Assembly: GCA_023475345.1 (NCBI GenBank)
Contig: JAMCWD010000001.1
Coordinates: 186,001 to 250,000 of the forward strand
DNA: 64,000 bases
Source: Chloroflexota bacterium
GTDB taxonomy: Bacteria > Vulcanimicrobiota > JAMCWD01
Direction of reading: 5' to 3'
Part shown: positions 34,711-64,000 of the stretch, in pieces
Layout of the letters: the number at the start of each line of letters is the position of its first letter
How positions within the stretch are numbered: the first letter of the stretch is position 1
The notes under the pieces: generated by a model
What the model was told of the DNA's origin: nothing
Database searches by the model: none
The model's input: the letters and a program-made list of their open reading frames with translations, nothing else
Position numbers and translations under genes: made by a program

Positions 34711-36145
34711 CCAGAATTGCACTATGCAGTTCGCTTTCAGGGATCCTTGTAAACATCATCTTAACCCATACTTTGAAGTACTTCCATAATTCCCCCGGAC
34801 TTTTGGTGCGTGAAAGCATTTTAAGAACATATCCGGGCCTTCCGTAAAAAGCCATGTATGCTTTCTTGGTCAGCTCGAATATTTCGTTTTCGCTCAGTTC
34901 TGTCCACGGGGCCGGGTTCCTGATTTCCTGCACATTGCCTTTTATATATTCCTTCCAGTAATCATATCCCAGGATATGGTTCATGTCCAGTTCAAGCTGA
35001 GAGTGGGGCTTTGCGACGGTCCGCAGAAATTCTGCGTAATCGAGAGGAAGCGATGTTGCCAGCTTTATGGTTGCCTCAACGGTTTTTCTTGTATCGCCCG
35101 GGCCTCCGATCTGGAAAAATCCCAGGGGCCTTATGCCTACATCCGCGCTTTTGCCGATTATTCTGCGAACCTGATCGATATTTATGCCCTTGTTCATCTT
35201 TGAAAGCACTTCGGGCACAGCAGATTCGATGCCGTAAAATATCCGGACACAGCCTGATTCGGCAAGCGCCTCCAGCAGTTCTTCATCGACGACATCGACT
35301 CTTGAACGGCAGGACCATACAACGTCAAGTTTTCGCTTCTTTATCTCTGCAGCAAGCTCCATCGAGCGTTTTCTGTCGAAAAGCATCAGGGGATCGAAAA
35401 AATCGATCTCTTTTATGTCATACTTTGTAACGCACTCTTCCATCTCGTCAACCACGTTTTTTGAAGAGCGGGCCTCGAAACCCGTTCGCGAAATCGCGCA
35501 AAACTTACAATTATACGGGCAGCCGATTGAAGATAGCATTATGGTGAAATTTTTTCTCTGGGAAACATGTGAGAAATACCGGTGGTTCGGCAGAAGATCC
35601 CTTGCCGGGAAAGGATAATCCTCAAAGGGGGTCGTTTTATCCGGGAGCGGGTTGAATACGGCCTCGCCGTCCTTATGATATGCTACGCCCGGGACTTTCG
35701 AAAAATTTTTGCCACCGTTATAAGCGTCCAGGAAACCGGGTAGTATGCTGGGCGCATCTCCGAGGACCGCGTAATCTATTTCTTTATGCGACATGATTTC
35801 AGGGGCGTATGCCCCGACTTCGTGGCCGCCAATTATGACCGGAATAGAAAGCTCTTTTTTGAAAGGCACCAGCCATTCCATGACGTCCCAGAAGGTGGTG
35901 GCCGCGTGTATTGTAAAGCCCAGCAAGTCGGGAGAGAAATCTTTTACTTCTTCCAGGACTTTTTCAAGAGGTTTGCTTTCGGCGATGCTGTCCCATATCT
36001 TTACTTCTGCACCCGCATTCCTTGCAACAGATGCGGTGTAGGCGAGACCCAGGCTGGGAAACATTCCGAAATGCTCATCTACGAAAAACAGGTTTTCGTT
36101 GAAAAGCTTGTGCTTGAAAGGCGGATACACCAGGGCTATTTTCAT
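34679..36145 (-). CDS. B12-binding-domain radical SAM protein (solitary, 488 aa)
   Basis: Residues 1-180 are the B12-binding-like domain (ALVYPPF, PSLGLAYTASVARNAGAEV, GGHEVG near 107). The core has CxxxCxxC in SSIGCPYNCKFCAISRTGFE (about residues 209-216), then YGIESAVPEVLSKMNKGI and IGGPGDT. The C terminus has AFYGRPGYVLKML followed by SRTKSPGELWKYFKVW, closely paralleling the genes at 2738 and 37998. Note VLGDAPS in place of GDGE. It is coupled with the nucleotidyltransferase-family gene through a 32-44 nt overlap, so it may act on the same product. The interval to 36377 holds only the tolC promoter. Confidence 0.9.
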   Translation of the reverse strand: MKIALVYPPFKHKLFNENLFFVDEHFGMFPSLGLAYTASVARNAGAEVKIWDSIAESKPLEKVLEEVKDFSPDLLGFTIHAATTFWDVMEWLVPFKKELSIPVIIGGHEVGAYAPEIMSHKEIDYAVLGDAPSILPGFLDAYNGGKNFSKVPGVAYHKDGEAVFNPLPDKTTPFEDYPFPARDLLPNHRYFSHVSQRKNFTIMLSSIGCPYNCKFCAISRTGFEARSSKNVVDEMEECVTKYDIKEIDFFDPLMLFDRKRSMELAAEIKKRKLDVVWSCRSRVDVVDEELLEALAESGCVRIFYGIESAVPEVLSKMNKGINIDQVRRIIGKSADVGIRPLGFFQIGGPGDTRKTVEATIKLATSLPLDYAEFLRTVAKPHSQLELDMNHILGYDYWKEYIKGNVQEIRNPAPWTELSENEIFELTKKAYMAFYGRPGYVLKMLSRTKSPGELWKYFKVWVKMMFTRIPESELHSAILDEKEENIKTS

Positions 36146-46288: not shown

Positions 46289-46307
46289 CATGAAAATTTT
46301 TGTCATG
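46289..46307. terminator. Hairpin between the response regulator and radical SAM array
   Basis: CATGA/TCATG arms with a near-complementary AAATTTTTG core form an almost perfect 19-nt palindrome in the 97-bp gap between converging transcripts. It overlaps the stop codon of the last array gene. Confidence 0.4.
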
Positions 46308-48549
46308 CGTGATAAAGATTGATCTTCATCACACCGGTTTCTTGTTTGAGATCATAGTCCTTAAAAAATTCCATCGTGGCGGTATGGTACCCTGTCCACG
46401 GATTGGCGCGGCGGAATTCGCAGTATTCGTGATCGCTCAAAGGATAAGGGAAGAGGCATTTCGAACAATTGTCCTTGATTTTACATTGTGAGCATCCGCG
46501 TTCGCTTTCTTTACGGCTTTTCAATTCCAGAAGCCGGGCTTTTATGGTTTGTTCCGAATCGCCGATCTTTCCGACGGGGCCTCCGTTGACACATGTTCTT
46601 AACGAGCCGTCATGCATTACATGGAGGGCAAGCAAATCGGCCCCAGGGCACGGGGCGGCCTGCCACCTGCACCCGTCGCAGATCAGGGCTCCCTGGCGAA
46701 TAAGCGCGGCGAACGGGGTCTTTTCCATGTCCCCCGAAGGCTTTGTAAATAAATCCTTCAGGCTTTTAACATCCTTCCTGGTATTGACGGTGTACAACAG
46801 GGAAGGCGGCTGCCTCCCGGGGGCGGTCTTCTTTACCCTGTAATTTCCGGATTGGGATATAGGTACAAGATGGAAGTCGGTAGTCAATCCATAACTGCGC
46901 TTGATGTCCCTGGTAACGAGCCATTGATAATAATATCTTCCTCTGTGTTTTCTTTTTCTCCGGTTTATAAAATAGGTGAAGCGCGTGGGAAGTGCGGGAT
47001 GCAGCGCTTGTAATAATTCATCGATGACATTTCGCGTCAGGAGCTCGTTCTCGAATAAAAGATATATCGAGGCGTTGATCCGTGCTATCCCTCTGAGCCA
47101 TTCGATGAATTCCGGGGAGATGCTTTTAAAATCATGAATGACGATGACCGGCGAAAATTCCAGGATTTCGCCTCTTGATCCGCTCCACCACCCGAATACC
47201 GCATCGGTGATTTTTCGCTGTCCCTTGTAATTAGTGTGATAAACGAAACTGCTTACAAGAAACGGGATTTCGCTCAGATCATAAGTATAAGCGACTTCAT
47301 AAGGCAAGATATCGCGGCCCGCCTTTAATTCCAGGCCGTAATCTTTATAGACATCCATCAATTCCGTTCCCGAGAAGATTGTCAGGCGGTTATGATATGA
47401 AAAATGAACACCGAGAGATTTTACCACCTCCACGGTTTTTCTGCCTTCTTCCAGGGTTTCTCCCGGAAGGCCGTTTATAAAGCTGACGCTGGGAAGCATC
47501 CCTAAATTTTTTGTATAATCGACGCATTCCCGTATAGCTTCGATGTACCGTTTTTCTTCTTTTAAATCTTCGGATGTCCCGCCCACTTTTTTAATATTGC
47601 GAAGGACCCTGGGAACGCCGCTTTCAAGCCCGAAATTCACCATCCTAACCCCTGCGGCATACATGAGATCCATGAGATCTTTATCGACACGGTCCGCCCG
47701 GATTTCGGCATGGAGGAAAAGTTTAATTTTTTCTTTTACGATCCTCTCACAAAGTTCCCGTGTCCTTTTTTTATCAAGGCAGAAATTGTCATCCCATATA
47801 TCATTGCGCCTTTTGTCGCTCTGTTTTCCAAGGCGTTCTTCGATATATTTCAAATCGTTTATTACCCTGTCTATAGAATGATAACGCACTTTATATCCGA
47901 ACATGTTCGGCCCGTTACAGAACGTGCAGTGAAAAGCGCAGCCGCGTGAAGTCTGTATTCCACCCGCCCATTCAAGCCCGGTTAAGACCCCGGCCAGGTG
48001 AGGCGAGGGGAGGATATCGAGCTCTTCGCCCTTGGGCCGGTCGATGCCTATCAAGGGCCGAAGAGGTGTCCTTACAACCCTGTCTCCCTGCGGGAAAGAG
48101 ATCCCTTCTATATCCCCCAGCTCCGATTTCCCTTCGGCATGACGAAGAAGATCGACTATAGCGTATTCGCCTTCTCCCCTGACACAAACATCGATGCCGC
48201 TGTATTTGAAAAACAACCCGTCGGAAAATGTTGCGGTAGGACCGCCTGCCACCTGTAAAATATCCGGCGCTTTCTCTTTGAATGCTTTTGAAAGAATGTT
48301 CACCATGAAAAACACTGGGTCATAAGTTGTAAAGCCTATTATCTTCGGTTTCAACTCCAGTGTCCTGTCGATAAGAGTCATCATGTCCATCGGGCGGTCG
48401 GGCATAAGGGCCGTGCTAACGCCGAGCGATTCGAGATACGCCCTCATGTAAGCAAGCCCGATGGTAAAATTCAGAGAAAACAGGCCGCCTGCCTTGGGCA
48501 GGATGAAAACAATGTCAGCACATTTTTTCTTTGTGCCTGTATTTACCAT
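46303..48549 (-). CDS. B12-binding radical SAM protein with SPASM-like C-terminus, array copy 1 (promoter-distal, most divergent)
   Basis: 748 residues. B12-binding-like domain 10-190 (GLAYMRAYLESLGVS, GGPTATF at 102-108, RGEGEYA at 124-130). Radical SAM signature C204-x3-C208-x2-C211 (GCAFHCTFCNGP), then WDDNFCLDKKR, FGLESGVPRVLRNIKK and GLPGETLEEG. A middle region (about 400-620) is shared with the other copies but more weakly. The C-terminal Cys set includes CRWQAAPC, then C686-x2-C689-x5-C695-x2-C698 and C710 (EYC). It differs from the others in lacking the SYSMG element of the N-terminus and in its LPKAGGLF start. It overlaps the upstream copy by 7 nt. Function is unknown, possibly radical methylation or peptide modification. 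Confidence 0.9.
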   Translation of the reverse strand: MVNTGTKKKCADIVFILPKAGGLFSLNFTIGLAYMRAYLESLGVSTALMPDRPMDMMTLIDRTLELKPKIIGFTTYDPVFFMVNILSKAFKEKAPDILQVAGGPTATFSDGLFFKYSGIDVCVRGEGEYAIVDLLRHAEGKSELGDIEGISFPQGDRVVRTPLRPLIGIDRPKGEELDILPSPHLAGVLTGLEWAGGIQTSRGCAFHCTFCNGPNMFGYKVRYHSIDRVINDLKYIEERLGKQSDKRRNDIWDDNFCLDKKRTRELCERIVKEKIKLFLHAEIRADRVDKDLMDLMYAAGVRMVNFGLESGVPRVLRNIKKVGGTSEDLKEEKRYIEAIRECVDYTKNLGMLPSVSFINGLPGETLEEGRKTVEVVKSLGVHFSYHNRLTIFSGTELMDVYKDYGLELKAGRDILPYEVAYTYDLSEIPFLVSSFVYHTNYKGQRKITDAVFGWWSGSRGEILEFSPVIVIHDFKSISPEFIEWLRGIARINASIYLLFENELLTRNVIDELLQALHPALPTRFTYFINRRKRKHRGRYYYQWLVTRDIKRSYGLTTDFHLVPISQSGNYRVKKTAPGRQPPSLLYTVNTRKDVKSLKDLFTKPSGDMEKTPFAALIRQGALICDGCRWQAAPCPGADLLALHVMHDGSLRTCVNGGPVGKIGDSEQTIKARLLELKSRKESERGCSQCKIKDNCSKCLFPYPLSDHEYCEFRRANPWTGYHTATMEFFKDYDLKQETGVMKINLYHA

Positions 48550-50858
48550 GACTGTTCTCCTGATTCGAAATTCATAATGCCGTCGGATATTAATGGCCCG
48601 GCGGCGTCTTTTCTTGCCGAGCCTTTTAATATTTCACCTTTGCGAAGACTGCCGATAAAATTATTTTTGTACCATTTATTATAACACATGAGCAGGAATT
48701 GGAGCATTCTTGGATACCACCCTGCCTGCCTCATAAAACTGCAATACTCTTCAGCCGTGAAGGGGGCCGTGAAAATACAGCGTGTGCAATGTGCCCTGAC
48801 GCGGCATTTGTTACAGCCTCTCTTTTTCTCTTCCTGCCGCGTAAGCTTCTCGACACGCTGTTTGAGATCTTCGAGACTGTCTCCCACATGCCCGATACAA
48901 CAGCCGTGCTCGCATGGTGAAAGCTCGCCGTTTTTACGCACATGTATTTTTTGAAGATTTAACGCCGGGCACAGCCTGCCTGTAAAGCGGCACGCAGTTG
49001 CAAGGGGGATGTTGCCCCGGATCATCCTGCCTATAACCGAATTTTCAAAATCAGCCGGGGGATCACTCATCGCGGAAAGAAAATATTCGGCATCTTTACG
49101 TGACAAGACATCGTAAAAGACGATCCGCTCACTCGTGCTTGTTCTCCGGCTTGAACGCCATCTATGGAAAGGATACCTGTAATAATCCGACGGGCAATAC
49201 AACGGGAACTCCTCGAGTAAATCGGTTTCAAGCCTGTAATGTTCAACACCTCTCGAGTTTTTATCATGTGTTTTCTCCAGCACCATGAATGACCTGCTCA
49301 GAAGATTCTCAACAAATTTTTTCTTAATGACTTTCATGTCATCCAGGGAAGGCGTTATTTCATCATACCTGAATATCATCTGAGAAAAAAAGCTGAGGTT
49401 TTGCTTGAGCCATTCCAGGAGAGATTCATCGACGGTTTTATGGTCTTCGATCAGGATATGGGGCCGGAAGATATTGAAATACGGGTGATTGATATCCCAC
49501 CATTCGAACAGAGCGTTTTCAAAAGAATGAACGAAATAGATGCTGTAATCCATCGGGTAAGCGTTCGGCAGAATGGGGATACTGTTCACATCATAGTTAT
49601 GTGTGCATTTGAGTGGGAGCACCCTTTCGCCGTGCCGTACCTTCATGCCGAACTTCTCATGGTTCCTGTGAATCTCGGAGCCGACGAATACTATAAAATT
49701 ATTGTGATAATATGTCTCCAGGTTAAGCTCTTCCACTGTTCTTATGGTAGTCATGCCCTCTTCATACGTTTCGCCCGGAAGCCCGAAGATAACGCTCACC
49801 GTTGCCGTTATTCCCAGTTCCTTACAATCTTTTATCGCTCTCTTAATCGCATTTACGTATTCTTTTTCTTCTCTCAGGTCGGGTGATGTGCCGCCTGCCT
49901 TTTTAATATTGCGGAGCACCCGCGGCACCGCGCTCTCAAGCCCGAAATTGAATCCCTTCAATCCGGCTTCGTGCAGCAGTTCCAGCAGATCTCTATCCAG
50001 CCTGTCCGCCCTGATCTGTGTGTGGAAATGGAATTTGAGGCCCTCTTTAATAATGGCTTCACACAGACGGCGCGTCCTTTCCCTGTCCAGGCAGAGGTTA
50101 TCGTCCCAGAAATCGATCCTCTGGAGTTCTTTCCTGGCGCCTAAGTTTTCATCTATTATTTTCAAATCCCGGATTACGCGGTCGATGGAGTGATAGCGGA
50201 CCCTGTTTTTAAACATGGCGGGGCCGCAGCAAAAAGTGCATGGATACACGCATCCCCTCGATGTCATAAGGCCGGGGTTTGCCTCAAGTCCCGTAAGGAT
50301 CCCCTGTTCGAAAGGGGAGGGGAGGACATCAAGCTCTTCGCCTCTTGGAGCATCGATGCCGATCAATTCCCGGTCCGGCGTGCGTAATATCCTGCCGCCT
50401 TCCCGGAAGCTGATCCCCCTGATGTCTTCAAGGCTCCCTGCACCTTCCGAATACCGGTAAAGCTCAAAGATGGCTTCCTCGCCTTCGCTGCGGACTGCAA
50501 CGTCTATGTCGGGGATGTTGTTAAGTATGATCTCTTCGCCGAAAGTGGCGGTGGGTCCGCCCGTAACTATCAGCAAATCGGGAATCGACCTGCGCGCTTC
50601 TTGCGCCGCAGCTTTTACATTCGAAAAAACCAGGTCGTATGCCGGTATGCCCAGTACCCGCACGCCTCTTTTTTTTATCTCCTGTAAAAAAGAGTGTAGT
50701 TCGCCTGAGCCGCCGGAAACAGATAAAGAAGGGATCCCCTTTGACTTCAGGTAGGCGGCCATGTATGCGGTTCCCATCGAATATGAAAACTTCTCAACTC
50801 CCATGAAATGAGAGATGAAGAAAGCCACCCCGGTATCTTCTTTGCCGGATCTTTTCAT
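48543..50858 (-). CDS. B12-binding radical SAM protein with SPASM-like C-terminus, array copy 2
   Basis: 771 residues. ATG 50858 (MKRSGKED) is chosen because it matches the start of copy 4, has AGAGG upstream and forms an ATGA junction with the mini-ORF before it; an in-frame ATG at 50876 is the alternative. B12-like domain 10-190 (SYSMGTAYMAAYL, GGPTATF near 100). C203-x3-C207-x2-C210 (GCVYPCTFCCGP). FWDDNLCLDRERT, FGLESAVPRVLRNI and GLPGETYEEG follow. The SPASM-like tail has CRFTGRLCPA, CEHGCCIGHVGD and C-x2-C-x5-C-x2-C (GCNKCRVRAHCTRC), then EYC. It has a longer C-terminal extension (about 45 residues after the last Cys-cluster helix) than its siblings. Confidence 0.9.
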   Translation of the reverse strand: MKRSGKEDTGVAFFISHFMGVEKFSYSMGTAYMAAYLKSKGIPSLSVSGGSGELHSFLQEIKKRGVRVLGIPAYDLVFSNVKAAAQEARRSIPDLLIVTGGPTATFGEEIILNNIPDIDVAVRSEGEEAIFELYRYSEGAGSLEDIRGISFREGGRILRTPDRELIGIDAPRGEELDVLPSPFEQGILTGLEANPGLMTSRGCVYPCTFCCGPAMFKNRVRYHSIDRVIRDLKIIDENLGARKELQRIDFWDDNLCLDRERTRRLCEAIIKEGLKFHFHTQIRADRLDRDLLELLHEAGLKGFNFGLESAVPRVLRNIKKAGGTSPDLREEKEYVNAIKRAIKDCKELGITATVSVIFGLPGETYEEGMTTIRTVEELNLETYYHNNFIVFVGSEIHRNHEKFGMKVRHGERVLPLKCTHNYDVNSIPILPNAYPMDYSIYFVHSFENALFEWWDINHPYFNIFRPHILIEDHKTVDESLLEWLKQNLSFFSQMIFRYDEITPSLDDMKVIKKKFVENLLSRSFMVLEKTHDKNSRGVEHYRLETDLLEEFPLYCPSDYYRYPFHRWRSSRRTSTSERIVFYDVLSRKDAEYFLSAMSDPPADFENSVIGRMIRGNIPLATACRFTGRLCPALNLQKIHVRKNGELSPCEHGCCIGHVGDSLEDLKQRVEKLTRQEEKKRGCNKCRVRAHCTRCIFTAPFTAEEYCSFMRQAGWYPRMLQFLLMCYNKWYKNNFIGSLRKGEILKGSARKDAAGPLISDGIMNFESGEQSW

Positions 50859-50956
50859 TCGGGCCTCTTCTTCCATGAGATCGCCGGATTACTTGATATT
50901 GCTATGCCGGGGATCATTTTCCTCCAATGCCCCCTGTATCCTTGCCTGTTGAACAT
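50855..50956 (-). CDS. Mini-ORF (33 codons) bridging array copies 3 and 2
   Basis: The first ATG (50956) overlaps the stop of copy 3 (TGATG), and the TGA overlaps the ATG of copy 2 (ATGA), so the ORF exactly fills the apparent gap. An internal in-frame ATG at 50917 has a strong GGAGG three bases upstream and would give a 20-residue peptide (MIPGIAISSNPAISWKKRPE). The full product is basic, with two Trp. The first 13 residues vaguely resemble the tail of copy 3 (NRQ..R.W.K against SRQADRWK), so a duplicated gene-tail relic is an alternative. Whether it is translated or acts as a precursor peptide is unknown. Confidence 0.4.
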   Translation of the reverse strand: MFNRQGYRGHWRKMIPGIAISSNPAISWKKRPE

Positions 50957-53319
50957 CAGGATTTCCATCTATCGGCCTGCCTTGAAAAATTCTTGTTGTA
51001 GCACAGCAGCAAAAACTGGAGCATTTTTGGCAGCCAGCCTGCGTTTCTCACAAAACCGCAATATTCTTCAACCGTAAACGGCCCGGTGAAAAGGCACCTG
51101 GCACAGCGATCTTTCGCGGCACAACCGGAGCATCCCCGCTTCTTTTCTTCTTCCGAAGCCAGGGTTTCTATTCTTTCATGCAGCAGGTCGAGCGAATCGC
51201 CGACACTCCCTATCTTTTCGCCGCTTATGCATGGAATTATTTTTCCGTTCCTGAAAACATGTAATTTTTTCAAAGTGCGCGCAGGGCATAGATGCCCCAT
51301 AAAGCGGCACGATGTCCCCAGCAGAATTTCTCCCCGGATCATTTTGCCTGTAATAGATCTGTCAAAATCTTCCGGCGGATCCGTCATTTCTTTTAAGAAT
51401 GATTTTACATCTCTGCGGGAATTGACGGTATGAAAAACAACGCGTTTCTCGCCCGTTACATTTTTAGCGGTAACGGCTTTTGAAAAAGGATAAGAACGAT
51501 ATTCCTCCGGCCAGTTCATGGGGGGCTTGCCTAGTAAAAGGGATCTCAGCCTGTATATCTTAAGGCCGCCGGTTGATTTGTCCTTCACTCTTTCAATAAC
51601 CTGGGCAGGGAATGCAAGTTTTCCATGCTCGATAATTTTTTTTATAGCTTCCAATCCTTCAGCCTTCAGCCTGATATCGTCGCCTGTCCCTGACATGCAG
51701 GAAAGGACAGGCTTCATCCAATCCATGACCGAGAAGTCTTCCGTGTCATACCGGCCGGAAAGCAAGCTGCCGCCTATAATGTCTTTGACGGTCTTCATCC
51801 AGGCCTTGCGGGGCCGCGTTTTCTCATAAAGAAAAATTATAGCAGAGAAGAAACCAACGATGCTCTTCAGCCAATCACGCAGGCCGTCATCTATTTCGTG
51901 GAAATCTTCCAGCACTACATGGGGACCTGATTCTTTGAAAAACTGATCGTTAACGTCCCACCACTCAAACAGCGCACTCTCGAAAGATCTCAGAAAAACG
52001 GGGTGATAATTGATTGAATAAGCATTGGGCAGCACGGGGATACTGTTGACATCATACGGATGCTTCACTTTCAGCGGCAGAATTTCGCTGCCGAATTCAA
52101 CCTCCATGCCGAATTTTCCCGCTTCCCTGTGAAGTCCCGACCCGATGAAAACCATGAAAGGATTATGAAAATATTTTTCCAGGTCAAGTTCTTCCACCAT
52201 CTTTAAAGTTTTCATTCCTTCTTCGTAAGTCTCTCCCGGAAGGCCGAACATAACGTTGACGGCAGGCACTATCCCGATTTTTTTACAAATCTTAACCGCA
52301 CTTCTAATTGCTTCCACGTGTTGTTTTTCTTTTTTAAAATCAGGAGAATTGCCGTTTACTTTCCTGATGTTGCGAAGCACCCGGGACACCGCGCTTTCAA
52401 GCCCGAAATTGATCCTGCGGATCCCCGCTTCCCGCATCAACTCGAGCAGGTCGCGGTCCATAAAATCGGCGCGCGCCTGAATGTTGAAATGGAATTTCAA
52501 CCCTTCCCTTATAATCGCTTCGCAAATCCGGCGGGGACGGCTCCTGTTCACGCAGAAATCGGCATCGAAAAAATCGACGCCGGTTATTTCATTTTTGCCC
52601 GATGTGTTTTCTTCGATAATCTTCAGATCCTTAATGACCTGATCGACCGAATGGAACCTTACCTTTCCCCTGTACATGCCGGGGCCGCAGCAAAAAGCGC
52701 AGTTAAAAAGGCATCCCCGCGATGTTATTACCCCGGCCCTGTCCTCCAGGCCCGTGAGGATGCCCTGTTCGAACGGGGACGGCAGTATATCCAATTCGGC
52801 TCCCCTGGCTCCGCCGAGTCCTGCCAGAGGTCGATCCGGCGTGCGTTCTATCCTGTCTCCATCCCTGAAGCTCAACCCTTTTATATCTTCCAGGCTTACT
52901 CTGCCGGACATGTTTTCATAAAGCTCGTATATCGTTTCTTCCCCTTCGCCTCTTACCACGACATCAATTTCGGGTATGCCGGCAAGCACGACATCATCCG
53001 CAAGCGTTGGGGTGGAGCCGCCGGCGACTATCATCAGACCGGGCATCGATCTCCTGGCTTCCTTTGCCATCTTTTTAACGACAGGAAACAAAGCATCGTA
53101 AACCGGCAATCCCAGAAGCCTGACGCCTTTATCTTTCATTTCCCGAACGGCGGAATTAATATCGACTTCATTCCCGGAAAGAGTTACCGAGTAAACCCCC
53201 TTTTGCTTCAGGTAAGCCCCCATGTAAGCGGTCCCCATTGTATAAGCAAACTTTTCCACTGCAGGAAAATTAGAAACGAAAAACGCCACCTCCGTGTTTT
53301 TGACGCTCGCGTTTCTCAT
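50956..53319 (-). CDS. B12-binding radical SAM protein with SPASM-like C-terminus, array copy 3
   Basis: 787 residues, the longest complete copy. The B12-like domain has a variant glycine element GGSTPTL (near 100-106) instead of GGPTATF. The radical SAM signature is C203-x3-C207-x2-C210 (GCLFNCAFCCGP). VDFFDADFCVNRSR replaces the usual WDDNLCLD. FGLESAVSRVLRNI and GLPGETYEEG are kept. An insertion of about 40-45 residues (around residues 500-550, with MDWMKPVL and GDDIRL) is shared only with copy 8. C-terminal: CRFMGHLCPA, IPCISGEKIGSVGD, GCSGCAAKDRCARC and EYC. It overlaps copy 4 by 4 nt. Confidence 0.9.
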   Translation of the reverse strand: MRNASVKNTEVAFFVSNFPAVEKFAYTMGTAYMGAYLKQKGVYSVTLSGNEVDINSAVREMKDKGVRLLGLPVYDALFPVVKKMAKEARRSMPGLMIVAGGSTPTLADDVVLAGIPEIDVVVRGEGEETIYELYENMSGRVSLEDIKGLSFRDGDRIERTPDRPLAGLGGARGAELDILPSPFEQGILTGLEDRAGVITSRGCLFNCAFCCGPGMYRGKVRFHSVDQVIKDLKIIEENTSGKNEITGVDFFDADFCVNRSRPRRICEAIIREGLKFHFNIQARADFMDRDLLELMREAGIRRINFGLESAVSRVLRNIRKVNGNSPDFKKEKQHVEAIRSAVKICKKIGIVPAVNVMFGLPGETYEEGMKTLKMVEELDLEKYFHNPFMVFIGSGLHREAGKFGMEVEFGSEILPLKVKHPYDVNSIPVLPNAYSINYHPVFLRSFESALFEWWDVNDQFFKESGPHVVLEDFHEIDDGLRDWLKSIVGFFSAIIFLYEKTRPRKAWMKTVKDIIGGSLLSGRYDTEDFSVMDWMKPVLSCMSGTGDDIRLKAEGLEAIKKIIEHGKLAFPAQVIERVKDKSTGGLKIYRLRSLLLGKPPMNWPEEYRSYPFSKAVTAKNVTGEKRVVFHTVNSRRDVKSFLKEMTDPPEDFDRSITGKMIRGEILLGTSCRFMGHLCPARTLKKLHVFRNGKIIPCISGEKIGSVGDSLDLLHERIETLASEEEKKRGCSGCAAKDRCARCLFTGPFTVEEYCGFVRNAGWLPKMLQFLLLCYNKNFSRQADRWKS

Positions 53320-55577: not shown

Positions 55578-57832
55578 CGCTCTTTTTCCTTTAAGGACGG
55601 CATCCCGGTCTTTCCGGGCCGCGTATAACTGAAGAACTGTTCTTTGAGTCTTCTGTTATGGCACATTAATAAGAATTGAAGCATCCGGGGGAGCCATTTC
55701 GCTTCCCTGACAAAATCACAATACTCACCGGCTTTGAAAGGTTCAGTGAAGATACAGCGAGTACAATATTCTCTTGCGGAACATTGAGAGCAGCCCCTTT
55801 TTTTCTCCATATCATCAGCGATTTTTTCTATTCGTTCCTTTATGTATTCCAGAGAATCGCCTATCCCGCCTATTGCTTCGCCATGCTCGCATGTTGTAAT
55901 GACGCCGTTTTTTCGCACATGAATTTTTTGAAGCGAGCGGGCGGGACATGCACGGCCCAGGAAGCGGCACGCTGTTGAAAGCAATATTTCATTGTCAATC
56001 ATCCCGGATATAATCGAGCTGCCGCCGTCCACAGGCGGTCTCTGCATTTCTTCCAGGAAAAATTCGGCATCCTCCCTGGTTGCGATATTATAAAATACAA
56101 CCCTGTCTCCTGAAGATTTCCGCCTGTTTTTCAATGCCTGATGAAACGGAACCGAATAATAATCGGCAGGGCAGTACAGGGGCGTCGCATCGTAAACATC
56201 GGATTTCAAACGGTAATGATCGATGCCCCGGGACAAATTCGCAAATGATTTCTGGAGCACCATGGCAGGTCTGGAAAGGATCTCGCGGCGCAGCCTTCTT
56301 TTTATATTTTTCATTTCCCTGGGTGGCAGCCGGTCTCTTTCATATCTGAAAATCAACTGGGAAAAGAAACTCAGGTTCCTTTTAAGCCAGTCCATCAACT
56401 CATCATCTATGTCATGGCGGTCTTCAAAGATGAAATGCGGCTTAAAAACCTTGAAAAACGGCTGGATCATATCCCACCATTCGAATAAAACATTTTCAAA
56501 GGATTGAATAAAAAACTGACCCTGGTCGGTAGGCGAAGTATGCGGCATCACGGGAATTTTAGTTACATCGTAAGGCGGCGTATGTTTAAGCGGAAGGATC
56601 CTGTCGCCATGCCACACCTTCATACCGAAGTCTTTATGATTCTCTCGGATCTCGGTTCCCACAAAAACCTTGAGGTAGCTGTAGAAATAAGTTTCCAGAT
56701 TCATCTCCTCGATCATTTTGAGGGTGGCAAGGCCATCTTCGTAAGTTTCGCCGGGGGACCCGAATATAATATTGAGAGTCGGCGTAATATCAAGCTCCTT
56801 ACAATACCCGACGGTATTTTTTATAGACTCGATATATCTCTTTTCCTCCCTAAGATCCTTTGATGTGCCTCCGACTTTTTTAATATTTCTGAGAACTTTC
56901 GGCACGGCGCTTTCCAGTCCCAGGTTCAGACCCCGCACGCCTGCCTCACGCATAATCGCAAGCATGTCCCTGTCTAAAAGATCCGCTCTTACGCCCGCGT
57001 GGATATAAAAATTCAACCCTTCTTTTATTATCGCCTCGCAAAGGCGGCGCGTCCTGTCCCTGTCAAGGCAGAAGTTGTCGTCCCATATATCGATCCTGGG
57101 AAGATCATATCTGCTCTTTGTATTTTCATAAATGATTTTCAAATCGTCCATAATCCGCTCTATCGAATGATACCTGACCCTCCGGCCGTACATTGCCGGG
57201 CCGCAGCAAAACGTGCAAGGAAAAACACAACCTCGCGAGGTCATAAGCCCGGGGGTGGCTTCAAGTCCTGTGAGAATCCCAGTAGCGTAAGGCGATGGGA
57301 GGACATCGAGTCCGGCGCTCTTTTCCTTACCCGTCCCTATAAGCGGGCGATCAAACGTCCTGATAATTTTTTTTCCTTCCCGGAAGCTGAGGTTACCTAT
57401 GTCTTCAAGGTTCATTTTCCCTTCGGCATACCGATAAAGATCATAAATGGTTTCTTCGCCTTCTCTTCGGACGGCAACATCGACCTCGGGGATATTATTT
57501 AAGATTATATCGTCTCCGAAAGTTGCTGTAGGGCCGCCCGCCACTATCAATATATCGGGGATAATGCGCCGCGCCTCGCGGGCTATAGCACCTACATGAG
57601 AAAAGAGAATGTCGTAAGCCGGTATCCCCAGAACCCTGGCGCCTCTTTTTTTTATGTCCTCCAGGAACGCTATCAAGTCTTTCGAGCAGCCGGACATCGA
57701 AAGGGAAGGTATTCCTTTTTCCTTGAGATATGCCGCCATGTAAGCCGCGCCCATCGAATAAGAAAATTTTTCTATCCCCATATAATGGGATATGAAAAAC
57801 GCAACCCCTATCTCATCCCCGTGTGGTTTCAC
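55574..57832 (-). CDS. B12-binding radical SAM protein with SPASM-like C-terminus, array copy 5
   Basis: 752 residues from GTG 57832, whose GTGA overlaps the stop of the 26-codon mini-ORF upstream. B12-like domain: SYSMGAAYMAAYL, GGPTATF (99-105), RREGEE instead of RGEGEE. Radical SAM signature C202-x3-C206-x2-C209 (GCVFPCTFCCGP). WDDNFCLDRDRT, LGLESAVPKVLRNI and, unusually, GSPGETYEDG. Middle region with FENVLFEWWDMIQPFFKVF. C-terminal: CRFLGRACPA, CEHGEAIGGIGD, GCSQCSAREYCTRC and EYC. It is most similar to copy 2 in several segments, suggesting an ancestral pair. Confidence 0.9.
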   Translation of the reverse strand: MKPHGDEIGVAFFISHYMGIEKFSYSMGAAYMAAYLKEKGIPSLSMSGCSKDLIAFLEDIKKRGARVLGIPAYDILFSHVGAIAREARRIIPDILIVAGGPTATFGDDIILNNIPEVDVAVRREGEETIYDLYRYAEGKMNLEDIGNLSFREGKKIIRTFDRPLIGTGKEKSAGLDVLPSPYATGILTGLEATPGLMTSRGCVFPCTFCCGPAMYGRRVRYHSIERIMDDLKIIYENTKSRYDLPRIDIWDDNFCLDRDRTRRLCEAIIKEGLNFYIHAGVRADLLDRDMLAIMREAGVRGLNLGLESAVPKVLRNIKKVGGTSKDLREEKRYIESIKNTVGYCKELDITPTLNIIFGSPGETYEDGLATLKMIEEMNLETYFYSYLKVFVGTEIRENHKDFGMKVWHGDRILPLKHTPPYDVTKIPVMPHTSPTDQGQFFIQSFENVLFEWWDMIQPFFKVFKPHFIFEDRHDIDDELMDWLKRNLSFFSQLIFRYERDRLPPREMKNIKRRLRREILSRPAMVLQKSFANLSRGIDHYRLKSDVYDATPLYCPADYYSVPFHQALKNRRKSSGDRVVFYNIATREDAEFFLEEMQRPPVDGGSSIISGMIDNEILLSTACRFLGRACPARSLQKIHVRKNGVITTCEHGEAIGGIGDSLEYIKERIEKIADDMEKKRGCSQCSAREYCTRCIFTEPFKAGEYCDFVREAKWLPRMLQFLLMCHNRRLKEQFFSYTRPGKTGMPSLKEKER

Positions 57833-57909
57833 CGGTTAAGCTTCCCCCTATAAAAGTTATTCGCATCAAGCGACCCGGTAAATAGCAACGATTCCTCCGT
57901 CAATATCAT
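57829..57909 (-). CDS. Mini-ORF (26 codons) bridging array copies 6 and 5
   Basis: The ATG at 57909 overlaps the stop of copy 6 (ATGA) and has an excellent GGGAGGAG Shine-Dalgarno sequence four bases upstream. The TGA at 57829-57831 overlaps the GTG of copy 5 (GTGA). The frame therefore fills the 73-bp gap exactly. The product starts MILTEESLLFTGSL and ends NNFYRGKLNR. It could be a coupled small peptide or only a translational bridge. The NNF..GKL end resembles the NNFIGSLRKG tail of copy 2, so a gene-tail remnant is also possible. Confidence 0.45.
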   Translation of the reverse strand: MILTEESLLFTGSLDANNFYRGKLNR

Positions 57910-60155
57910 TTTACTCCTCCCGGTAAAGCCATTTCCCTGACTCGCTTGAGATGATCGAAATAAACTTCCGTAAGTTTGCTGTCATGGCACATCATTATAA
58001 AACGGAGCATCCTGGTAAGCCATCCGGCCTCCCTGACAAAATCACAATATTCGTCTTCGGTAAACGGCGAAGTAAACAGGCAGCGTGCGCAGCGATCTTT
58101 CGCCCTGCAGCCGGAACATCCCCGGCGCTTCTCCATTTCCACCGCAAGTTTGCGGACATTATTTTCAAGATCATCCATTGAATCGCCGACAACACCTATT
58201 TTATCTCCATGCCCGCACGTCGTTATTTCGCCATTTTTCCTGACGTGAAATTTCTGAACCGATAATGCGGAGCATGGCCGTCCCATGAAGCGGCATGCCG
58301 AAGCAAGGAGAACTCCATCCTGTAACATCCTGTCTATTATGGAATTTTCCATAATAGCAGGCTGGGACTTCATCCCTTTTATGAAAGATTTCACATCCCG
58401 GCGCGATGAAATTTCATAATAAAAAATATTTTGAGCCGTCGACCCGCACTTGTTCCCGGCCGCGGATCGAAACGGGATCGAATAATAATTCGACGGGCAG
58501 TATCCTGGCATGCTTATTTGAAGACGATAATGCTTGCCTCCTCCCCCTGAAGCCCTTTGCTTTTCTATAACCGGAAATGAATCGCTGAGAAGACCGGCTT
58601 TTAAAAATGATTCCAGTCGTTCTTTAATCAGGTCCGGCTCTTTTTTTACAGGCTTTATCTCATCAAATTTTAATATAACCGGGGAGAAGTAATTAAGGAT
58701 GGATTCAAGCCATGCAAGAAGCTTGTCGTCGGCATCATGAAGGTCTTCAAGAATAACCTGCGGTTTCAAAATTTTGAAAAAAGGTTTGTTTATATCCCAC
58801 CATTCGAATAACGCGTTTTCAAACGATTGAACGAAAAACCGGGTATGGTCCATCGGAAAGACATGGGGAAGAATAGGAATTTTCGTCACATCGTAAGGGT
58901 GCTTGACCTTTAAAGGAAGAACATTTTCGCCGCGGCCGATATCCATTCCGAAACGTTCCGCATCTTTCAGGATGCGGGTGCCCACATAAGCCATCAGGAA
59001 GCTGTGATGATAGCTTTTCAGTTTCAATTCTTCAATCATCTTTAAGGTTTTCAAGCCGTCCTCGTAGGTCTCACCGGGGAGACCGAACATTACATTGGCG
59101 GTGGGCGTTATGCCGAGTTCTTTACAATCTTTAACCACCCTGCGCACGGATTCTACATATTCTGTTTCTTCATGGAGGTCGGGAGAATTTCCGCCCATTT
59201 TCCCGATATTTCTGAGGATTTGCGGAACTGCGCTCTCCAGGCCGAAATTGATGTTGCTTACCCCTGCATCCTTCATAACGGCAAGAATTTCGCGATCCAG
59301 GAGGTCCGTCCTGACCAGGGCGTGAAAATTGAATTTCAAACCCTCCCTGATAACGGCTTCGAACAGCTTGCGGGTCCTGCTTTTATCGAGGCATAAATTG
59401 TCGTCCCAGAAATTAACCCTGGGAACCTCGCCGCGCTCTCCGATATTTTCAGCCATTATTTTCAGATCCCGTATCACGCGGTCAACGGAATGACAGCGGA
59501 CTTTTCCCCTGAACATGCCGGGGCCGCTACAATAAGAACATTGAAAAACGCAGCCCCTCGAGCTCATCAACCCCGGCTTCCATTCAAGCCCGGTCAATAT
59601 CCCGTTAATATAAGGGGACGGCAAAACATCGAGCTCGGCGCCTTTGACGGCGCCCGCACCAATAAGCGGCCTGTCAGGGTTTCGGATTATCCTGCCGCCG
59701 TCCCTGTAGCTGATCCCGCCGATTTCATCAATCGAAATCTTGCCTCCCGCATATTGATAAAGTTCCCAAATCGTCTCCTCTCCTTCGCCGCGAACCGCCA
59801 GATCTACCTCTGGAATATTCTCAAGAATAATATCATCGGCAAAAGTTGCGGTAGGCCCCCCTGCTGCTATCAAAGCGCCCGGCATCATTCTCCTCGCAGC
59901 CGACGCTATGGCCTTCACATCGGAAAACATGAAATCATAAACCGGAAGACCTATAATTTTTACGCTTTTTTTCATATCGCTTAAAAGAGAAATAATCTCG
60001 CCTGCGGTTCCCGATATTGTCATTGAAGGGATGCCTTTGTCCTTGAGGTTCGCGGCCATGTAAGCAATGCCCATCAAATAAGAGAATTTATCGACCCCAT
60101 AGATATGCGTTATGACAAATACGACAGGGACATCACGCGCGGATTTTTTTTTCAT
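57906..60155 (-). CDS. B12-binding radical SAM protein with SPASM-like C-terminus, array copy 6
   Basis: 749 residues. B12-like domain with SYLMGIAYMAANL and GGPTATF (99-105). Radical SAM signature C202-x3-C206-x2-C209 (GCVFQCSYCSGP), with Tyr replacing the usual Phe before the last Cys. VNFWDDNLCLDKSRT, FGLESAVPQILRNI and GLPGETYEDG. Middle region FENALFEWWDINKPFFKIL and an LHDADDKLLAWLESILNYFS helix. C-terminal: CRFMGRPCSA, CGHGDKIGVVGD, GCSGCRAKDRCARC and EYC. It overlaps copy 7 by 4 nt. The first Arg/Lys-rich residues differ from the MKRSG start group. Confidence 0.9.
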   Translation of the reverse strand: MKKKSARDVPVVFVITHIYGVDKFSYLMGIAYMAANLKDKGIPSMTISGTAGEIISLLSDMKKSVKIIGLPVYDFMFSDVKAIASAARRMMPGALIAAGGPTATFADDIILENIPEVDLAVRGEGEETIWELYQYAGGKISIDEIGGISYRDGGRIIRNPDRPLIGAGAVKGAELDVLPSPYINGILTGLEWKPGLMSSRGCVFQCSYCSGPGMFRGKVRCHSVDRVIRDLKIMAENIGERGEVPRVNFWDDNLCLDKSRTRKLFEAVIREGLKFNFHALVRTDLLDREILAVMKDAGVSNINFGLESAVPQILRNIGKMGGNSPDLHEETEYVESVRRVVKDCKELGITPTANVMFGLPGETYEDGLKTLKMIEELKLKSYHHSFLMAYVGTRILKDAERFGMDIGRGENVLPLKVKHPYDVTKIPILPHVFPMDHTRFFVQSFENALFEWWDINKPFFKILKPQVILEDLHDADDKLLAWLESILNYFSPVILKFDEIKPVKKEPDLIKERLESFLKAGLLSDSFPVIEKQRASGGGGKHYRLQISMPGYCPSNYYSIPFRSAAGNKCGSTAQNIFYYEISSRRDVKSFIKGMKSQPAIMENSIIDRMLQDGVLLASACRFMGRPCSALSVQKFHVRKNGEITTCGHGDKIGVVGDSMDDLENNVRKLAVEMEKRRGCSGCRAKDRCARCLFTSPFTEDEYCDFVREAGWLTRMLRFIMMCHDSKLTEVYFDHLKRVREMALPGGVK

Positions 60156-62419
60156 ATTGCCGCCTCCCTGTCAAAATAAGGCTCGAGCGAACTCCTGGGT
60201 TTTATATAACCGGAGAAATCGGTTTTCAGCCTGTTCTTATGGAGCATACACAGGAATTGAAGCAGTTTCGGAAGGCGCCCGGAACTTCTCATAAAACTAC
60301 AATACTCTTCAGCAGTAAAGGGGGCGGTAAAAAGGCACCGGGGGCAGTAAGCTTCAGCAGGGCACCCGGCACAACCGCGCTCTTTTTCGACAGCCGACGA
60401 AATCTCAGCAACCCGTTTTTTAAGAGCCTCCCGTGGCTCCCCAATCCGCCCGATACAACAGCCGTGCTCACATGAAGCAAGGTCGCCGTTCTTTCTGACA
60501 TGGATCTTTTTTATTAAAAGGGCCGGGCATTTGTGGCCGCTGAAACGGCACGAGCAGGCAAGAAGTATTTCCTTTTCGATCATTTTCTCAATAACGGGAT
60601 TGCCTGTTTCATCCCCGACTCTCATCTCTTTCAAAAACAGCCCGGCGTCTTTCCTTGAATCAACATTGAGGAAGACGACGCGGCGGCCGCCGGATGATCT
60701 CCTCGACTTTTCAGCCTCTTTGAAAGGATAAGAAAAATAATTCGAAGGAAAAAAAGAAGGCGGGTTATCATTAATGCCTGTTTTTAAGCGGTAATGAGCA
60801 ACGTCTTCAGTGCCCCCGGCGGCCGCCCTTTCAACCACCAGGAAACAATCGCTGAAGTTGCTTAAAATAATGTTTTTCGAAAGCAAATCCTCTATTGCTC
60901 TCTTTTCTTTCAATGACGGAATCGCCCTGTCATATTTCAGAATGATCCTCGAGAAAAATCCCTGTGTTCTTTTAAGCCACTCAAGCAAATCATCATCGAT
61001 TTTTCGCCTGTCCTCAAGTATTATATGCGGGCCGCCCCACTTGAAAAACGGGCTGTTAACATCCCACCATTCGAATATGGCGCTTTCAAAAGATTCCAGG
61101 AAAGAAAGCGTATTGTCCGCTGGGAACCCGTGAGGCAGCACGGGAATTTTGCCGGTATCGTAAGGGTATTCATGATCGAAAGGCAGAACCGATCCGCTTT
61201 CTCTGATTTTGACATCGAATTTTTCCGGGTTTCTATGAACTTCAGACCCTGCGAAAACCGTGAAAAAATTATAAAAGTATTTTTCAAGCCCGAGTTCTTC
61301 AACCATCTTCAAAGACCCAAGCGCGTCTTCGAATTTTTCATGCGGCGTGCCGAAGATAACATTGACCGTAGGGGTGATGCCGAGATCTTTACAATCCTTA
61401 ACCACCCTCCGGACAGTTTCCAGGTAATTCTTCTCTTCCTTGAAATCAGGCGACTTGCCGTTAACTTTCTTCATATACCGGAGCATCCGTGGCACGGCGC
61501 TTTCGAGACCGAAATTGATCCACCTGATCCCGGCTTCTCTCATCAGCAAAAGCAGTTCCCTGTCCAGCAGATCGGGCCTTATCAACGCATTGAAATTGAA
61601 TTTCAAATCTTCATTCACAATAGATTCACAAAGCCGTTGTATCCTCTTTTTATCAAGGCACAAATTGTCGTCCCAGAAATTAATGATGCGGGGGTGTGCC
61701 CTTTCTCCGATGTTCCTGTCTATAATCCGGAGATCTTCGATTACTCTTTCTATGGAATGGTACCGGACTTTACGCCGGAACATTTCAGGCGCACTGCAAA
61801 ATGTGCATTGAAAAGCGCAGCCCCGGGATGTTTGCAGCCCTGCTGTCGGTTCGAGACCGGTCAGGATCCCCGTTCCGAAAGGGGAGGGGAGGATATCCAG
61901 CTCGGAGCCTTTTTCCTGGCCGGTCCCTATGAGCGGGCGGTCTCCCGTGCGTATGATCCTGTCACCGTCCTTGAAGCTTATCCCTTTTACTCCGTCAAGA
62001 TTTAAGCCGCCTTCGGCATACTTATAAAGCTCATATACCGCCTCTTCACCTTCGCCCCTGACAACAACATCGATTTCCGGCACATGCTTGAAAATAATAT
62101 CATCGGCAAAAGTCGCCGTCGGGCCGCCTGTAACGATAAGGACTTCCGGCAAAATCCTGCGGGCCTCTTTAGCTATCATCTTCAAATGTGAAAAAGCCGT
62201 ATCGTAAGCAGGTATGCCGAAAACGCGCACTCCCTTCTTTTTCAAATCTTCGAGAAAATTTAATAGATCCCGGGTACAACCGGATACAGAAACCGCATTC
62301 ACTCCATTAGCTCTCAGGTACGCGGTCATATAGGCGGTGCCCATAGAATAATTCTGTATCCCCAGATATTGTGACATGAAAAACGCTACAACGGTATCGC
62401 TGGACCTCCGGCCGATCAT
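60152..62419 (-). CDS. B12-binding radical SAM protein with SPASM-like C-terminus, array copy 7
   Basis: 755 residues from ATG 62419, which has GGAGG seven bases upstream, forms an ATGA junction with copy 8 and aligns with sibling N termini; the frame is open further upstream inside copy 8 but without family character. B12-like domain YSMGTAYMTAYL, GGPTATF near 98-104. Radical SAM signature C201-x3-C205-x2-C208 (GCAFQCTFCSAP). INFWDDNLCLDKKR, FGLESAVPRMLRYM and GTPHEKFEDA, a marked variant of GLPGET. C-terminal: CRFSGHKCPA, CEHGCCIGRIGE, GCAGCPAEAYCPRC and EYC. Confidence 0.9.
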   Translation of the reverse strand: MIGRRSSDTVVAFFMSQYLGIQNYSMGTAYMTAYLRANGVNAVSVSGCTRDLLNFLEDLKKKGVRVFGIPAYDTAFSHLKMIAKEARRILPEVLIVTGGPTATFADDIIFKHVPEIDVVVRGEGEEAVYELYKYAEGGLNLDGVKGISFKDGDRIIRTGDRPLIGTGQEKGSELDILPSPFGTGILTGLEPTAGLQTSRGCAFQCTFCSAPEMFRRKVRYHSIERVIEDLRIIDRNIGERAHPRIINFWDDNLCLDKKRIQRLCESIVNEDLKFNFNALIRPDLLDRELLLLMREAGIRWINFGLESAVPRMLRYMKKVNGKSPDFKEEKNYLETVRRVVKDCKDLGITPTVNVIFGTPHEKFEDALGSLKMVEELGLEKYFYNFFTVFAGSEVHRNPEKFDVKIRESGSVLPFDHEYPYDTGKIPVLPHGFPADNTLSFLESFESAIFEWWDVNSPFFKWGGPHIILEDRRKIDDDLLEWLKRTQGFFSRIILKYDRAIPSLKEKRAIEDLLSKNIILSNFSDCFLVVERAAAGGTEDVAHYRLKTGINDNPPSFFPSNYFSYPFKEAEKSRRSSGGRRVVFLNVDSRKDAGLFLKEMRVGDETGNPVIEKMIEKEILLACSCRFSGHKCPALLIKKIHVRKNGDLASCEHGCCIGRIGEPREALKKRVAEISSAVEKERGCAGCPAEAYCPRCLFTAPFTAEEYCSFMRSSGRLPKLLQFLCMLHKNRLKTDFSGYIKPRSSLEPYFDREAAI

Positions 62420-64000
62420 ACGCCCGCCTCCATAACAGCCGGAGTTATTATATCCTTTCCCGAGTGGAGATGCTCGTAAAAAACCTTTCTCAGCCTGTTC
62501 GTATGAGCCATTAATAAAATGTGAAGCACCCTCGGCATCCACCCGGCATTTCTCATAAACCCGCAGTATTCTTCAACGGTAAAAGGCGCGGGGAAAAGAC
62601 AACGGGGACAGTAATCGGATGCCCGGCACCCGGCACAACCGCGTTCTTTGTCGATCCTTTCTCCAAGATCTTCGATCCTTCTGCGCAGCAATTTTATCGG
62701 GTCGCCTACAATGCCTATAATATCACCGTTCTCGCATGTGACAATTTCGCCGTTTCTATGAATATTAAATTTATGCAGTGAGCGCCCGGGACACAGCTTC
62801 CCGCAGAAACGGCATGAAGAAGTCAACAATATGTCGTTTTCCAACATCTTGGAAATTAAAGACCCCCCGGCATCCGTACCCGGTTTTTCAAATTCCTTGA
62901 GAAAACATTTAACATCCTCGCGGGTGGAGACGTCTAATGCGATTATTTGCCCGGTGCTGCTTGACCGCTTGATTTTGTGCGCACTCTTGAAGGGGTATAT
63001 GAAATATTCAGGAGGCAGGTACAGGGGGAATTTTTCCATCAGCCCGGTCTTAAGACGGTAATGCTTAACACCTGAACTCTGTTGTATCAAAGATCTTTCG
63101 AGAACTATTGCAGGCCAGGAAAGCACTCCCCTGTAAATAATCCGCTGAATAGACCTCATCTCTTCCGTTGTAAGGTTTGTTTCGTCATCGCCTGTTAAAA
63201 CTGAAAACGGGCTTAATATCTTATCGATCCAATCCTGCATTTCGTCTTCAAACATACGCCCGGCGCGGTTAAAAATTCCCTCGCTTAAAACTTCTTTTAT
63301 TATCTTTATCTCGTTTTTACGAGGCCTTATTCTATCAAACTTCAAAGCCACACGGCAATAGATATTTAAATTTTCCGTCATCCAATCCTGTAGTTTTTTA
63401 TCGATATGGCGGTGTTCTTCAATGACAAGGTGTGGAGTAAAGACCTCCGGTACCGGGCGTGCGGGGTCCCACCACTCAAAAACGGCATTTTCGAAAGAAC
63501 GAAGAAATGATATATTCGAATCAGCCGGCGTTGCATGAGGCAGAATAGGGATGTCGGTTACATTATAAGAGGGTTTATATTTCATGGGAAGGACTTTGTC
63601 GTTTTTCCATACATTCATATCGAACTTTTTATAATCATCATAAATCTGAGTGCCCACGAAAACTTTCAGAAAATTATGCGCGTAATCTTCCAACCCCAGT
63701 TCTTCCACCATTTTTAAAGAAGCCAGCCCGTCTTCCAATGTTTCACCCGGAAGACCCGTAATAATGCTTACCGAAGCCCTGATGCCGAGCTCTTTACAAA
63801 TACCAACCGCCTTGCGGATCGATTCCAAATATTTTTTTTCTTCCCGCAGATCCTGTGATTTGCCGTTTACTTTCCTTAAATTGCGAAGGATCCTCGGCAC
63901 CGCGCTTTCCAGCCCGAATTTCATTTTCAAGACCCCTGCATCACGCATCAAAGATAAAATATCCCTGTCGAGTAGATCGGCTCTTATGTTAGTATCTATT
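62416..64000 (-). CDS. B12-binding radical SAM protein with SPASM-like C-terminus, array copy 8, 5' end outside window
   Basis: About 528 residues are visible. The frame is open to the window edge, with sibling-like sequence RADLLDRDILSLMRDAG upstream of the first internal start, so the B12 domain and CxxxCxxC lie outside. FGLESAVPRILRNLRKVNGK and GLPGETLEDG belong to the radical SAM core. The middle region has FENAVFEWWDPARP and the approximately 40-residue insertion (MQDWIDKIL, GDDETNLTTEE) shared with copy 3. C-terminal: CRFCGKLCPG, CENGDIIGIVGD, GCAGCRASDYCPRC and EYC. The operon's promoter must lie further upstream. Confidence 0.88.
   Translation of the reverse strand, partial: IDTNIRADLLDRDILSLMRDAGVLKMKFGLESAVPRILRNLRKVNGKSQDLREEKKYLESIRKAVGICKELGIRASVSIITGLPGETLEDGLASLKMVEELGLEDYAHNFLKVFVGTQIYDDYKKFDMNVWKNDKVLPMKYKPSYNVTDIPILPHATPADSNISFLRSFENAVFEWWDPARPVPEVFTPHLVIEEHRHIDKKLQDWMTENLNIYCRVALKFDRIRPRKNEIKIIKEVLSEGIFNRAGRMFEDEMQDWIDKILSPFSVLTGDDETNLTTEEMRSIQRIIYRGVLSWPAIVLERSLIQQSSGVKHYRLKTGLMEKFPLYLPPEYFIYPFKSAHKIKRSSSTGQIIALDVSTREDVKCFLKEFEKPGTDAGGSLISKMLENDILLTSSCRFCGKLCPGRSLHKFNIHRNGEIVTCENGDIIGIVGDPIKLLRRRIEDLGERIDKERGCAGCRASDYCPRCLFPAPFTVEEYCGFMRNAGWMPRVLHILLMAHTNRLRKVFYEHLHSGKDIITPAVMEAGV

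Follow-up and report, generated by a model that had tools for sequence, protein, structure and literature searches.

A nine-gene array of putative cobalamin-dependent radical SAM enzymes with a SPASM-like C-terminus in a 3.25-Mb bacterial assembly

We analyzed a 64,000-nucleotide stretch of the assembly of an uncultured Chloroflexota bacterium (GCA_023475345.1; GTDB lineage Vulcanimicrobiota), here called the window, which comprises positions 186001-250000 of contig C43. The source assembly is 3.25 Mb in 71 contigs and is 86% complete. One end of the window carries a run of paralogous minus-strand genes whose products combine a B12-binding domain, a radical S-adenosylmethionine (SAM) domain, and a SPASM-like C-terminus. 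An earlier note, made from the sequence of the window, had described eight tandem paralogs. The genes are tandem, intact, and diverged as it said, but the array holds nine of them (R1-R9), and the genome has three more family members elsewhere (C6, C36a, and C36b), for a total of 12 copies. R1-R7 are complete in the window together with part of R8. As the note had expected, the array runs past the window edge; the contig completes R8 and, after a 267-nt gap, adds R9 (L011 coordinates). The genes are as follows.

46303-48549 (-): R1, last array gene, B12-binding/radical SAM/SPASM-like, 748 aa (open reading frame, Pfam); divergent, nearest the C36 pair
48543-50876 (-): R2 paralog, 777 aa; homology favors an inner ATG at 50858 as the start
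50956-53319 (-): R3 paralog, 787 aa, carries a middle-region insertion (open reading frame, Pfam, alignment)
53316-55577 (-): R4 paralog, 753 aa, ATGA overlap with R3 (open reading frame, Pfam, alignment)
55574-57832 (-): R5 paralog, 752 aa, GTG start; nearest R2 (60%)
57906-60155 (-): R6 paralog, 749 aa (open reading frame, Pfam, alignment)
60152-62419 (-): R7 paralog, 755 aa; start moved by homology from 62542, given by the open reading frame caller, to the ATG at 62419
62416 to >64000 (-): R8 paralog, cut by the window end; 803 aa when completed on the contig (L011:2417-4828)
L011:5095-7365: R9 paralog, overlapping the upstream signal-peptidase/GNAT gene (L011:7326-8408)
50855-50968 (-): 37-aa open reading frame spanning the R3-R2 gap and ending, at its stop, in an ATGA overlap with the probable R2 start at 50858
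57829-57909 (-): 26-aa open reading frame across the R6-R5 gap that overlaps R6 at its stop and R5 at its GTG start

The junctions had been described as mostly 4-nt ATGA overlaps. This holds for four of them (R8/R7, R7/R6, R5/R4, and R4/R3), but R2/R1 is a 7-nt overlap, and there are gaps at R3/R2 (79 nt) and R6/R5 (73 nt) as well as at R9/R8. From this layout, the array is likely made as a single transcript, in line with the earlier proposal. Pfam gave zero matches for the 37-aa and 26-aa gap open reading frames (ORFs), and no relatives were found for them; they might serve in coupling, be remnants, or encode peptides. An apparent in-frame TGA in R9 proved to be an ordinary stop codon, as the match had overrun the gene end.

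The B12-binding and radical SAM domains first read from the letters stand up to model searches. The B12-binding model (PF02310) scores above the Pfam cut-off in R1-R7, and the Radical_SAM model (PF04055) does so in all eight window proteins, with R8 partial. In an alignment of the 12 copies, the CxxxCxxC motif, one more core-domain cysteine, and eight C-terminal cysteines are invariant. The C-terminal cysteines follow the pattern C-x13-G-x4-C and then CX2CX5CX2C-x11-C, which is SPASM-like with one spacing altered relative to the reference that we used (CX9-15GX4C ... CX2CX5CX3C ... C; TIGR04085). The NCBIfam SPASM model TIGR04085 itself matches R2 at residues 637-703 with an E value of 0.0024, and another match reaches 0.0003, both under the cut-off. 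When hhalign was run against bona fide radical SAM/SPASM proteins from these genomes, the cysteines fell in register with E values of 0.0006-0.0008, at a probability of only 25-30%. Judged by these features, the R proteins would be of the cobalamin-dependent (class B) radical SAM type with an added SPASM-like C-terminal domain. The FENxxFEWWD element, previously taken as common to all copies, is present in several but is absent or altered in R1 (ITDAVFGWWS), R4 (FENSVFQLPD), and R9 (SESALFEWGE).

An AlphaFold model of R2 has a pLDDT (predicted local distance difference test) score of 74. The top Foldseek matches of this model are TsrM, CysS, MgmA, and TokK, with E values of 1e-19 to 1e-17, and they fall in the front half of the protein. 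The solved B12-radical SAM enzymes TsrM, CysS, TokK, and OxsB are among its best structural matches, yet they share 15-20% identity and cover the front half only. By sequence, MgmA (9ccb) ranks first among solved structures. For the middle region (residues ~411-625), neither PDB nor viral structures gave a significant fold match, and no solved structure significantly matches the C-terminal region taken by itself. The idea that the middle region is a decayed barrel came from weak viral radical SAM matches (TM ~0.3) and was dropped, as profile comparison gave no support.

We also compared the proteins with curated families, and all of these models missed, with best scores of ~95-126 bits against cut-offs of 250-750. 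ApyD (NF050148), which matches over the B12-binding and radical SAM domains, is among the best matches at 97-117 bits for R1-R7 and 126 bits for C36a, far below its cut-off of 750, and the middle and C-terminal regions are unmatched. ApyD C-methylates a peptide tyrosine on a RiPP (ribosomally synthesized and post-translationally modified peptide) precursor (PMC10635010). HpnJ (TIGR03471), BchE (TIGR02026), and MgmA (TIGR04014) share the B12-binding plus radical SAM layout. They score 95-120, 83-118, and 84-108 bits in R1-R7, far under their cut-offs of 577.6, 481.35, and 360, and their alignments to the array proteins stop around residue 400. Every curated cut-off therefore rules out membership of a known family, and the earlier view that the array belongs to no characterized family holds.

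The copies are well separated from one another. R2-R9 are 47-60% identical pairwise as proteins and at most 62% identical as DNA, while R1 is 33-37% identical to the other array copies and 39-40% identical to C36a and C36b. A tree of 17 sequences places R2-R9 and C6 in one clade with 100/100 support, star-like and unresolved in its internal branching, and places R1 and the C36 pair outside it. Going by this tree, R2-R9 and C6 are one genome-specific expansion of single origin, and R1 is an older branch outside this recent expansion. Mean identity among R2-R9 and C6 is 57-58% in the B12 and SAM domains and 40% in the middle region, the most divergent part. C6 lies apart from the array:

L007:143-2410: C6 copy, member of the R2-R9 clade; the sole such gene on its 3.6-kb contig, with a divergently oriented membrane protein gene

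Array codon positions 1, 2, and 3 are conserved at 0.64, 0.74, and 0.39, respectively, and therefore the array proteins have been kept under constraint. Because of this and of the protein and DNA identities within R2-R9, we reject the array as a chance or assembly copy. An assembly artefact or a misreading of one gene, which the earlier note had raised as a test, has next to no likelihood; the fragmented state of the assembly speaks for it and nothing further was found, whereas the best pair reaches only 62% DNA identity and the junctions and insertions are individual to each copy. The array is real and unusual. A redundant amplification, through dosage or drift, of one enzyme acting on one site, with a copy number that has no functional logic, is improbable as well. 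The star-like branching of R2-R9 would suit it, as would an expansion seen in this genome only among the genomes searched. Redundancy should lead to decay, however, and these copies retain all cysteines and open frames at ~50% identity, with codon positions 1 and 2 constrained and divergence concentrated in the middle region.

Relatives outside this genome are few. Related genomes with arrays of other copy number, which the earlier note had looked to, did not appear: 148 other genomes of the phylum yielded no match to the C-terminal half and no array. This half does occur in 7 of 384 Omnitrophota genomes, in a single copy each, with two of the matches borderline. Among 84,980 species genomes, a motif-seeded, non-exhaustive scan turned up two relatives in which the C-terminal half is present as well, both from Omnitrophota. 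Viral contigs gave no relative. A literature search gave no account of such an array, with most subscription papers outside its reach.

The Omnitrophota single copies sit in RiPP-like cassettes that include PqqD, HprK-like, S26-like, and NTP_transf_5 proteins, an ABC-2 exporter, and short YxxP-bearing ORFs, although the loci differ. At L016, the order is NTP_transf_5, PqqD, a 51-aa ORF, an HprK-like gene, a signal-peptidase/GNAT fusion, and then the family homolog, with further radical SAM genes and an ABC-2 exporter downstream. L017, L117, L118, and L119 are variants of this gene set, each with at least one short YxxP ORF; such ORFs are present at five Omnitrophota loci. At L017, four YxxP or related short ORFs lie on the plus strand at 4549, 14522, 14712, and 16122, and this locus also has glycosyltransferase-PqqD fusions, an HprK-like protein, and ABC-2 genes.

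A comparable cassette exists in the array's own genome, on contig C36. There, a unit of an HprK-like gene followed by a family member occurs twice with a PqqD gene between the units; the two family members, C36a and C36b, are R1-like and 75% identical to each other. The earlier statement that no precursor or transporter is visible is true for the window, but the relatives' cassettes contain precursor-like ORFs and exporters, and the C36 cassette contains the following.

L013:14711 and L013:18725 (-): two candidate RiPP precursors on C36, with a common leader MDISK..KDYKEPVF..V.VDYS.PTS and differing Val/Ala/Gly-rich cores

The two leaders are identical at 25 of 32 residues, and their codon differences are 11 synonymous versus 7 non-synonymous. 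We read these ORFs as RiPP precursors because a conserved leader with a variable core is the usual precursor signature. Both stand behind an identical near-consensus TTGACT-17-TATAAT promoter, found in the whole genome only at these two sites, and a strong ribosome-binding site. A whole-genome search with a precursor profile returned only these two. The second precursor is followed by a broken PqqD-like ORF, a PqqD remnant. At C36 and L016, the cores consist almost entirely of Val, Ala, and Gly and lack Cys and Tyr. Some Omnitrophota cores near the family, at L117 and L119, do have Cys or aromatic residues.

The array has a further link to L016. The gene overlapping R9 upstream encodes a signal-peptidase-like domain fused to a GNAT acetyltransferase, and this genome has no other such fusion. 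The protein shows homology along its length to its L016 counterpart (25% over ~300 aa, E = 2e-23), and in both places the fusion lies directly upstream of a family enzyme.

Because the single-copy relatives adjoin small-peptide genes, the array probably decorates at least one small peptide at many positions. The parts of the Omnitrophota cassette appear to be split here, with precursors, PqqD, and HprK on C36 and the fusion and nine enzymes on C43, from which we infer action in trans. We lean, tentatively and short of calling it probable, toward an array that modifies RiPP precursors in trans, most likely by C-methylation, with PqqD binding the leader and the paralogs dividing the sites. It would be a lineage-specific expansion of a peptide-modifying, cobalamin-dependent radical SAM enzyme with a SPASM-like end, acting on ribosomally made precursors with the PqqD protein as leader-binding partner. 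The most likely reaction would be methylation of unactivated carbons on small hydrophobic residues (Val, Ala, Gly, and Ile), which we favor because nearly pure Val/Ala/Gly cores leave few alternative reactions, and each paralog would have its own positions. The likeliest known substrates would be the two C36 precursors, whose genes lie with those for PqqD and the HprK-like kinases, or relatives of these precursors yet to be found. A set that acts on related substrates or on successive sites of one, as the earlier note suggested, is still the best reading.

A stronger version is possible but doubtful: all nine array enzymes with C36a, C36b, and C6 may act combinatorially and in trans on the two C36 precursors, each at positions of its own, to give a densely C-methylated hydrophobic peptide, with precursor supply and leader binding from C36 and the fused signal peptidase-acetyltransferase encoded with the array. 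If true, this would be, to our knowledge, the largest paralogous B12-radical enzyme set for one product.

Several observations weigh against peptide methylation in trans. The array and the C36 precursors are on different contigs, and each C36 precursor is already adjoined by its own family member. The array operon contains no precursor, PqqD, or HprK; the nearest PqqDs lie ~22 kb upstream in C43, and no second HprK for the array was found in the genome outside C36. The gap ORFs and a YxxP scan of ~170 kb gave no precursor within the array. The closest curated models include the lipid and tetrapyrrole enzymes HpnJ and BchE besides peptide ones. The auxiliary clusters that a SPASM domain predicts are more typical of cross-linking enzymes.

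This last point also bears on a reading that we consider unlikely but worth weighing, in which the substrates are peptides but are not methylated. The SPASM-like clusters would drive radical oxidation, giving thioether or carbon-carbon crosslinks or epimerization, and the cobalamin would be structural or an electron conduit. Every cysteine of the SPASM-like C-terminus is retained, the L117 and L119 cores offer Cys or aromatic residues, and a B12-radical SAM enzyme of a biphenomycin-like pathway crosslinks tyrosines without methylation (PMC12257519). The C36 and L016 cores, however, suit C-methylation or epimerization better than crosslinking.

Rather unlikely, in our view, is a substrate other than a peptide, for instance a lipid, an isoprenoid, or a surface polysaccharide, supplied by the upstream cluster, with the likeness to RiPP enzymes reflecting ancestry only. 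Several PMT_2 glycosyltransferase-like genes, a weak SQHop-cyclase-like protein, and GNATs do lie upstream on the same strand, and the HpnJ and BchE scores and the fruitless precursor searches in the operon fit as well. In contrast, wherever the neighborhood of a single-copy relative can be read, it holds RiPP-like partners and short YxxP ORFs; enzyme and signal-peptidase/GNAT partner are conserved together; and further upstream the same cluster carries PqqD, a second S26-like protein, and a fusion of PqqD to radical SAM/SPASM.

Among known systems, PoyB and PoyC of the proteusin polytheonamide come close to the favored reading, site division by peptide-methylating paralogs. PoyC methylates Ile and Val, and the two enzymes C-methylate separate stretches of one hydrophobic core (PMC11285071). 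As proposed for the array, a single pathway uses several B12-dependent radical SAM enzymes, with sites shared out on a long hydrophobic core; the candidate cores at C36 and L016 are similarly rich in Val/Ala/Gly. Unlike the array, they are two rather than nine or more. In the Poy precursor, the leader is long and nitrile-hydratase-like (PMC8326336), whereas the candidates here have a short leader with YxxP. The SynChlorMet system (ScmC/ScmD/ScmE/ScmF) has a similar gene set of PqqD, HprK-like, and radical SAM/SPASM proteins. The relatives' HprK-like and PqqD proteins match ScmC and ScmD weakly, at 22.5 bits against a cut-off of 125 and 32-37 bits against 100, respectively, and thus below both. 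The main enzyme here differs in being B12-dependent. Precursor candidates are also present here, and we know of no identified Scm precursor; the relatives supply candidates for this type of PqqD/HprK-like cassette.

B12-dependent radical SAM chemistry is hard for chemists, and the choice of sites on peptides is poorly understood. A set of 9-12 paralogs of the same architecture, most divergent in one uncharacterized region, together with leader-sharing precursors, would allow direct tests of site selection.

Some further features of the genome and contig were observed. Over the whole genome, 53 places match an array protein, of which ~40 are other B12-radical SAM-like proteins, a richness unusual for a 3.25-Mb genome. 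A promoter-like site lies directly upstream of the signal-peptidase/GNAT gene, although such matches are weak evidence. A second RiPP-like set is located on C43, ~20-25 kb upstream of the array, and a nucleotidyltransferase of a family shared with the Omnitrophota cassettes is in the window:

L012:8105-11465 (+): B12-radical SAM protein, PqqD, PqqD-radical SAM/SPASM fusion, and S26-like/TPR protein
L012:11789 (+): divergent 39-aa ORF, MGYEKPVVMSFEAEK..., which belongs to the same set and resembles a YxxP precursor
33562-36145 (-): NTP_transf_5 nucleotidyltransferase adjoining a B12-radical SAM gene

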